Source of the DNA: Sulfurivirga caldicuralii
GTDB taxonomy: Bacteria > Pseudomonadota > Gammaproteobacteria > Thiomicrospirales > Thiomicrospiraceae
DNA length: 26,994 bases
Direction of reading: 5' to 3'
Assembly (NCBI GenBank): GCA_015661715.1
Contig: DQVN01000105.1
Coordinates: 1 to 26,994, forward strand
Shown here: positions 26,255-26,994 of the stretch, piece by piece
How positions within the stretch are numbered: position 1 is the first letter of the stretch
Layout of the letters: each line of letters starts with the position of its first letter
The notes under the pieces: model-generated
The model's input: the letters and a program-made list of their open reading frames with translations, nothing else
What the model was told of the DNA's origin: nothing
Databases searched by the model: none
Position numbers and translations under genes: made by a program

Positions 26255-26304
26255 ACCAAAGCCCATAGGGGCCAAAGCGAGCTCGCCTGCGCCGGATAAT
26301 TTTT

Positions 26305-26332
26305 TTCACCCCGCAGACAAAATGGGTATAAT
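26305..26332 (+). promoter_or_regulatory. Promoter of the CRISPR leader and array
   Basis: A perfect TATAAT at 26327-26332 has TTCACC (26305-26310) 16 bases upstream as a four-of-six -35, with a T-rich tract just before it. Transcription would start near 26339 and cross the whole leader before the first repeat at 26553. Confidence 0.65.
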
Positions 26333-26352
26333 GGACAGGACGCTGATGCGGA

Positions 26353-26380
26353 CAAGACCGGGCAGTTTTCGCCGGTTTTG
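26353..26380 (+). promoter_or_regulatory. Hairpin preceding boxA in the CRISPR leader (boxB-like position)
   Basis: CAAGACCGG (26353-26361) pairs with CCGGTTTTG (26372-26380), nine pairs with one G-U, around a 10-base loop. It starts about 14 bases after the expected transcript start and 13 bases before the boxA-like element, the same order (hairpin, then boxA) as in rRNA operon leaders. Confidence 0.55.
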
Positions 26381-26393
26381 TTGCCTCAGCGAA

Positions 26394-26406
26394 GGTTCTT
26401 TAACAA
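26394..26406 (+). promoter_or_regulatory. boxA-like antitermination element in the CRISPR leader
   Basis: GGTTCTTTAACAA is close to the E. coli rRNA boxA TGCTCTTTAACAA, differing in two positions near the 5' end. boxA binds NusB/NusE and protects long untranslated RNAs from Rho. boxA elements upstream of CRISPR arrays have been reported in other bacteria. Confidence 0.65.
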
Positions 26407-26552
26407 ATAGATGATTATCTATGATTTGGGAGCCTTTTATAGGGCCACCCTGTTTTTTAGGGGGCTCAACTGGAAAAACAGGGTCTAGAAAATAACTTAG
26501 GTTATGCGCCTAAGCTATTGAAAGTGCTGAGGAATTGGAGTTATCCACAGCC

Positions 26553-26866
26553 CTTTGACACCTAACCTCGCATATAGAGGGTTAAGACCCATCAAGCTCG
26601 ACTTCAAACTTCACAAGCAGTCTTTGACACCTAACCTCGCATATAGAGGGTTAAGACTAAACCCGAACGGAACCGTCGGGAAGGATATCGCCTTTGACAC
26701 CTAACCTCGCATATAGAGGATTAAGACATAGCTTCCAGAGCAGTATCTAAGTCATTAGCTACCTTTGACACCTAACCTCGCATATAGAGGGTTAAGACTA
26801 GTAGGCGTAGCGCCCCCCACAGTACTCGGGACTTTGACACCTAACCTCGCAGATAGAGGATAAGAC
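26553..26866 (+). CRISPR. Orphan CRISPR array: five repeats, four spacers
   Basis: Repeats are at 26553-26588, 26622-26657, 26692-26727, 26763-26798 and 26832-26866. Repeats 1, 2 and 4 are identical 36-mers starting CTTTGACACCTAACC and ending GGGTTAAGAC. Repeat 3 has one G-to-A change; repeat 5 is degenerate (35 bases, T-to-G in the loop and a changed, shortened 3' part). Spacers are 33, 34, 35 and 33 bases and unrelated to each other. The degenerate repeat on the right, the promoter and boxA on the left and the terminator on the right all indicate rightward transcription with the leader at the left. The repeat folds as TAACCTC paired with GAGGGTTA with one bulged G. No cas gene is in the window, and I cannot assign the type. 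Confidence 0.95.
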
Positions 26867-26870
26867 GATC

Positions 26871-26897
26871 GCCCAGCCGTTTTGGCTGGGCTTTTTT
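26871..26897 (+). terminator. Intrinsic terminator after the CRISPR array
   Basis: GCCCAGCC (26871-26878) and GGCTGGGC (26884-26891) pair perfectly around GTTTT and are followed by six T. It begins four bases after the last repeat, so it would end the pre-crRNA. Confidence 0.9.
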
Positions 26898-26916
26898 GTT
26901 TGTATGGGTGGGATAT

Positions 26917-26939
26917 AAAAAAGGCGCCCGCAGGCGCCT
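26917..26939 (-). terminator. Intrinsic terminator of the minus-strand gene at the right edge
   Basis: Read on the minus strand, AGGCGCC-TGCG-GGCGCC is followed by six T. It lies about 23 bases beyond the stop codon of the frame entering from the right edge. Confidence 0.85.
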
Positions 26940-26961
26940 GGTTAAGGAAGGGTGAGGGGGT

Positions 26962-26994
26962 TTACTGATTGAGCTGTTCTACCGCCTCGAGGAT
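26962..26994 (-). CDS. 3' end of an unidentified minus-strand gene
   Basis: From the right edge the minus strand reads ILEAVEQLNQ then TAA at 26964-26962, followed shortly by a strong terminator. Ten codons are too few to identify the product. Another minus frame is open a little further, so the frame choice rests on the terminator spacing. Confidence 0.4.
   Translation of the reverse strand: MLEAVEQLNQ

Follow-up and report, generated by a model that had tools for sequence, protein, structure and literature searches.

A putative rRNA-type boxA antitermination leader of a remote type III-B CRISPR array in Sulfurivirga caldicuralii

The CRISPR array at the right end of the analyzed stretch of DNA (the window, 26,994 nucleotides) is preceded by an untranslated leader with a boxA identical to that of an rRNA operon of the same genus, and its pre-crRNA is probably transcribed under Nus-factor antitermination. 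The window corresponds to contig C16 of a genome bin that is fragmented into 163 contigs (1.51 Mb in total, 95.7% complete). The CRISPR unit follows panC, a name read from the open reading frame (ORF), and a tRNA-Ser gene on the opposite strand.

All elements of the unit are on the forward strand. A consensus scan predicted a sigma-70-like promoter (26303..26332), in which TTTTCA lies 18 bases upstream of TATAAT (26327-26332), with transcription starting at ~26339. Three promoter-like sites were found in the 1 kb around the leader against a shuffle mean of 1.2, and the promoter call is weak when taken alone. A predicted 5' stem-loop of 19 pairs (26341..26391) encloses a nine-pair helix, CAAGACCGG/CCGGTTTTG with one G-T pair (26353-26380), and ends 3 nt before the boxA GTTCTTTAACAA (26395..26406), which is included in the 13-base form GGTTCTTTAACAA (26394-26406). 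The boxA is thus placed in sense orientation between the promoter and the first repeat. The block from boxA to the first repeat (26407..26552) contains a CTTAGG/CCTAAG dyad and has a DnaA-box-like 9-mer, TTATCCACA (26541..26549), that ends 3 bases 5' of the first repeat. The array itself (26553..26866) consists of five repeats, the last of which is degenerate and 35 bases long, and four spacers of 33-35 bases. An intrinsic terminator with a 9-pair stem and a T run (26871..26897) closes the unit, and similar terminators end the other three arrays with this repeat; terminator-like sites in the region numbered 3 against a shuffle mean of 1.4. A weak terminator-like stem and T run was also observed within the leader, 3' of boxA (26439-26460), and could be an obstacle that antitermination must pass. 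The preliminary description of this DNA had named the TATAAT promoter, a boxA-like sequence 13 bases after a nine-pair hairpin, about 145 untranslated bases before the first repeat and four spacers. Each of these was recovered, the untranslated stretch measuring 146 bases without a listed ORF of at least 80 aa; the hairpin is present where it had been placed, and its extent was understated, since the full stem-loop has 19 pairs.

Within the window, GTTCTTTAACAA has one exact site, and three sites with at most two mismatches were found against a shuffle mean of 0.79. Over the 1.51 Mb genome, TTCTTTAACAA occurs exactly at two sites, both of them in CRISPR leaders. The degenerate form GYTCTTTAAMA has seven sites genome-wide against two for the reversed control, and five of the seven are in sense orientation 57-160 nt upstream of the first CRISPR repeat. 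These sites are distributed over four type III-B leaders, a type I-F-like leader on contig C162, one spacer of the C162 array and C136:2733-2743. The latter site (GTTCTTTAACA, locus L154) is the sole boxA-form site outside CRISPR loci; a possible ORF of 156 codons begins ~26 nt downstream of it on the same strand. For comparison with rRNA boxA, eight genomes were searched, five of which gave a 16S match; a 16S gene was not found in the bin itself. In the same-genus genome G017, GTTCTTTAACAA precedes the 16S gene and GCTCTTTAACAA follows it, and GTTCTTTAAAAA precedes the 16S gene in four genomes of three other genera. The type III-B leaders carry either GTTCTTTAACAA (C16 and C60) or GCTCTTTAAAAA (C12 and C66), so that the boxA differences among these four leaders fall only at positions at which rRNA boxA varies too.

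The 36-base repeat of the window array is also present on C60 (15 repeats), C66 (12 repeats) and C12 (6 repeats). The array on C60 is preceded by genes for Cmr1, Cas10b, Cmr3, Cmr4, Cmr5, Cmr6, a CARF-HEPN Csx1, Cas6, Cas2 and Cas1, and this system is type III-B. As the window repeat is the one found beside this cmr/cas operon, the window array was identified as a remote type III-B array, which is presumably served from the C60 locus. No spacer is common to any two of the four arrays, and the four spacers of the window gave no target when compared with phages. A BLAST search with the window leader matched the other three leaders from query position 66-68 onwards, thus spanning boxA to the repeat, with 82-85% identity; leader identity, mostly without the repeat, is ~79% for C60 and C12. 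In the four-leader alignment 110 of 161 columns (boxA included) are invariant, conservation of the block is strongest near the repeat, and boxA is kept in all four leaders with this repeat. The promoter and the hairpin fall outside the shared match. Upstream of boxA the evidence for kinship is mixed: the global alignment of C16 and C12 was equaled by none of 300 shuffles (local p = 0.02), that of C16 and C60 had p = 0.56 (local p = 0.01) and that of C60 and C12 had p = 0.07 (local p = 0.15).

The short window array had been regarded as a puzzle, for which protection from Rho would seem little needed. This point does not stand, as the same leader block precedes arrays of 14, 10 (split 9 + 1 by an interruption) and 5 full-length spacers; the boxA element therefore belongs to the array family and not to the window array alone. 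The window unit comprises ~560 untranslated nt, which is enough for Rho to act. The last 77 bases of the window are found exactly in C66, and 26859-26994 (136 bases) match it at 98.5%; both arrays end in degenerate terminal repeats. C16 and C66 may therefore be strain versions of one locus, or else an assembly branch. The first 91 bases of C66 also occur in C12. The C66 array (L012) is interrupted by ~2.1 kb between two repeats, containing two ORFs (376 and 199 codons) for which no Pfam family was found; the interruption is an insertion or an assembly fault. The C-terminal part of the Cas1 encoded on C60 (L011:15924-16832) is unlike that of its closest relatives, as if the frame shifts near the end. 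The Cas1 alignment comprised the protein itself and 11 of the 120 relatives among the matches listed, and the closest of those listed (P0002-P0004) have 49-58% identity.

A second CRISPR system, which is type I-F-like, is located on C162 (L153), with matches to Cas1f, Cas3f and Cas7f and an array of eight repeats that reaches the contig end; two neighboring ORFs (753 and 170 codons) had no PADLOC family. Its leader carries the boxA GCTCTTTAACA 57 nt before the first repeat. When compared by eye, this leader has no likeness to the type III-B leaders beyond boxA, and it was absent from the DNA matches of the window leader. Its boxA was for this reason counted as what appears to be a second, independent case. 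One 33-base spacer of the C162 array (L153:14811-14843, corresponding to C162:28810-28842) is the exact reverse complement of the array's own leader (L153:14528-14560), across boxA. The flank together with the first base of this spacer reads CC, as would a type I-F PAM. The crRNA of this spacer would pair with both the leader RNA and the leader DNA, in self-targeting or autoregulation.

The segment from the predicted start to boxA folds into a single stem-loop of -28.6 kcal/mol in the C16 leader (z = -4.7; none of 500 dinucleotide shuffles was as low), an energy reached by ~0.2% of 4898 window stretches of the same length. The corresponding segment of the C12 leader beats its shuffles (p = 0.002) and is among the lowest 3.6% of stretches of its own locus, whereas that of the C60 leader is not better than shuffles (p = 0.2) and is among the lowest 0.5% of own-locus stretches. 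The -10 box of the C60 array falls inside the C60 cas1. The type I-F-like leader has only 24 nt between its -10 box and boxA, and no structure was predicted there. A hairpin as a fixed part of the CRISPR leaders in this genome is thus not supported, and its lack of generality counts against the antitermination reading. In rRNA antitermination of E. coli, boxA is sufficient and the boxB hairpin dispensable. The stem-loop likely aids antitermination, by protection of the 5' end or presentation of boxA.

The order promoter, hairpin, boxA had been likened to that of rRNA operons, and the same order was found in the rRNA leader of G017 (L052), which has a TATAAT, a hairpin, 12 nt (12-13 nt over the two leaders) and an identical 12-base boxA, GTTCTTTAACAA; its start-to-boxA fold had p = 0.05. 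The two leaders differ in that nothing matches beyond boxA and that the hairpin has 5 pairs in G017 and 19 in the window. Other rRNA leaders of the family gave fold p values of 0.002 (G005), 0.004 (G020 and G032) and 0.15 (G052). Descent of the window leader from an rRNA leader was rejected, as the window leader finds nothing in G017, whose 16S gene and leader were searchable.

The DNA search found this leader in none of 61 other genomes of the order; a single 27-base match in G032 was taken for chance. The leader pattern scan of genome contigs, the repeat and leader pattern scans of viral contigs and the plasmid search gave nothing. Distant loci were represented by the best 80 of at least 545, with Cas1 29-42% identical. 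From 46 of these, 50 array segments with a related repeat tail were obtained, a few of which are downstream parts of an array already represented (L123, L142); the other 34 were without a run of three repeats plus the tail pattern. A boxA-like site in sense orientation within 320 nt upstream was present in 2 of the 50 segments (L067 at 306 and L096 at 260). The strand comparison covered the 47 segments with the full 320 nt upstream, leaving out 3 of the 50 with less, and gave two sense and no antisense sites, as it also did at 320-600 nt. A second array finder identified 63 arrays at the same loci (59 not of this genome) and the same two boxA-like sites. The scarcity in distant segments counts against the antitermination reading, and boxA was rejected as a general trait of related arrays; with 2 of 50 segments, it appears to be a lineage trait and not a hallmark of these systems. 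The expectation that relatives keep boxA together with the array thus had a mixed outcome, being borne out by all four arrays with this leader and by 2 of the 50 distant segments.

It also counts against antitermination that nusB was not found in the bin, where the only match (34.8 bits, below the cut-off) lies inside a 454-codon frame. A gene whose name was read as ribH, the neighbor of nusB in G017, is missing from the bin as well. A full nusB match was obtained in G017, and in G018 an apparent nusB start follows ribH at the contig end. The missing nusB was taken as a probable assembly gap in preference to a true loss.

From the order and spacing of the elements, the identity of the boxA to the rRNA boxA of the genus, its retention in four leaders and its presence in the unalike type I-F-like leader, we infer that the unit is transcribed, that Nus factors bind and confer Rho resistance, and that the stem-loop helps. 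The sigma-70 promoter would produce an untranslated RNA with an rRNA-type boxA directly after its 5' stem-loop. The emerging boxA would be bound by NusB and ribosomal protein S10, which together with NusA, NusG and probably SuhB would convert RNA polymerase to the Rho-resistant form used on rRNA operons. The polymerase would then transcribe leader and array (~560 nt) up to the intrinsic terminator, and the array transcript would be cut by Cas6. It is unlikely, by comparison, that the boxA-to-repeat block owes its conservation to a DNA role in spacer integration by Cas1-Cas2 and host factors, with boxA a functionless passenger at its edge. That the whole block is conserved, most of all near the repeat, would fit such a role, as would the resemblance of the palindrome and the DnaA-box-like 9-mer to DNA sites and the fact that the arrays of 48 of the 50 distant segments manage without boxA. 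A passenger would, however, hardly be expected to differ only at positions that rRNA boxA tolerates, or to appear independently in the type I-F-like leader. Chance, by which an AT-rich leader would happen to hold a boxA-like word and a hairpin, is extremely improbable: although TTCTTTAACAA with at most one mismatch is no commoner genome-wide than its reversed control (19 versus 27 sites), the exact and rRNA-tolerated forms are rare, with only 7 sites in 1.5 Mb, and five of these precede arrays on the sense strand, in leaders of two unalike families.

The leader RNA might instead have a role of its own, in which a structure that hides or exposes boxA regulates expression of the array. The fold of the whole leader (26339-26570) has a predicted energy of -84.2 kcal/mol (z = -5.4; 0/200 shuffles as low), partly owed to the 5' stem-loop, and pairs most of boxA with GGGAGCC-like bases 35-45 nt downstream; the four-leader consensus fold retains most of these pairs. 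The pairing counts against the antitermination reading, for which NusB-S10 would need to bind first, during transcription, and it leaves room for a regulatory fold. A covarying leader RNA nevertheless found almost no support, as both sides differed in only 1 of 40 consensus pairs, with a covariation term of +0.25; the power of this comparison is low, with four sequences and 110 of 161 columns invariant. Nine of the 40 pairs cannot form, or contain a gap, in one of the four leaders, and Rfam gave no family for 26305-26552 at E values up to 1. A regulatory role of the leader RNA was accordingly judged very unlikely, and antitermination at boxA remains the preferred reading.

The last bases before the first repeat are TTATCCACAGCC (26541-26552), and 26541-26549 fits the DnaA-box 9-mer TTATNCACA. 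The word TTATNCACAGCC occurs exactly at only four places in the bin, all of which are type III-B leader-repeat junctions. The single difference among the four 9-mers, TTATACACA in C12, is at a position of the DnaA-box consensus that DnaA tolerates. Three copies of TTATNCACA lie within 63 bases at the predicted dnaA start on C85 (shuffle mean 0.10), and the 9-mer can therefore be regarded as a form of DnaA box in this genome. Such a 9-mer arises somewhere in window-like sequence by chance in 43 of 100 shuffles, and the four junction copies count as a single event by descent. Among the 50 distant array segments the 9-mer is missing from every junction; one segment carries it at 127 nt. A leader with two signals, in which boxA would recruit the antitermination complex to the RNA and the DnaA box would recruit DnaA to the DNA, there marking the Cas1-Cas2 integration point or coupling spacer acquisition or transcription of the array to replication, is a speculative and quite doubtful idea. 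Among the papers within reach of the literature search, none linked DnaA or its box to the leader of a CRISPR array or to a leader-repeat junction.

Antitermination of bacterial CRISPR arrays by boxA, with Nus-factor protection from Rho, was reportedly described by Stringer et al. in eLife in 2020. As far as papers citing it allow comparison, the window resembles those arrays in having boxA in an untranslated leader, in sense orientation, with a proposed Nus-factor protection from Rho, and differs in that it is type III-B and remote, its boxA standing 158 nt from the first repeat at the 5' margin of the conserved block and being preceded by a 19-pair stem-loop. That boxA before CRISPR arrays was already known, as had been remarked, agrees with two papers, according to which CRISPR arrays are served by boxA or by the rrn antitermination complex (PMC7862264, PMC12691694). 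One of them used the boxA GTTCTTTAAAA of a Legionella Lens CRISPR leader, an element of the same type as that in the window leader, in a multiplex CRISPRi tool, and a synthetic construct with the Legionella boxA raised precursor-crRNA ~10-fold (PMC7862264). Unlike the window, that tool works with dCas9 and has its boxA 58 or 90 bp upstream of the first repeat.

Judged from its sequence, the window leader appears to be a real, well-formed antitermination-type leader with a mechanism that is likely ordinary, and it is somewhat unusual in its completeness and in the recurrence of boxA before the five arrays found in the bin. If the 9-mer is bound, CRISPR adaptation would be linked to replication control. 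The leaders with a common boxA-to-repeat block and differing upstream sequence constitute a natural test of the importance of the 5' stem-loop. With this finding, a type III-B family with remote arrays joins the CRISPR arrays that bear an rRNA antitermination signal, and two CRISPR types in one bin each carry boxA.
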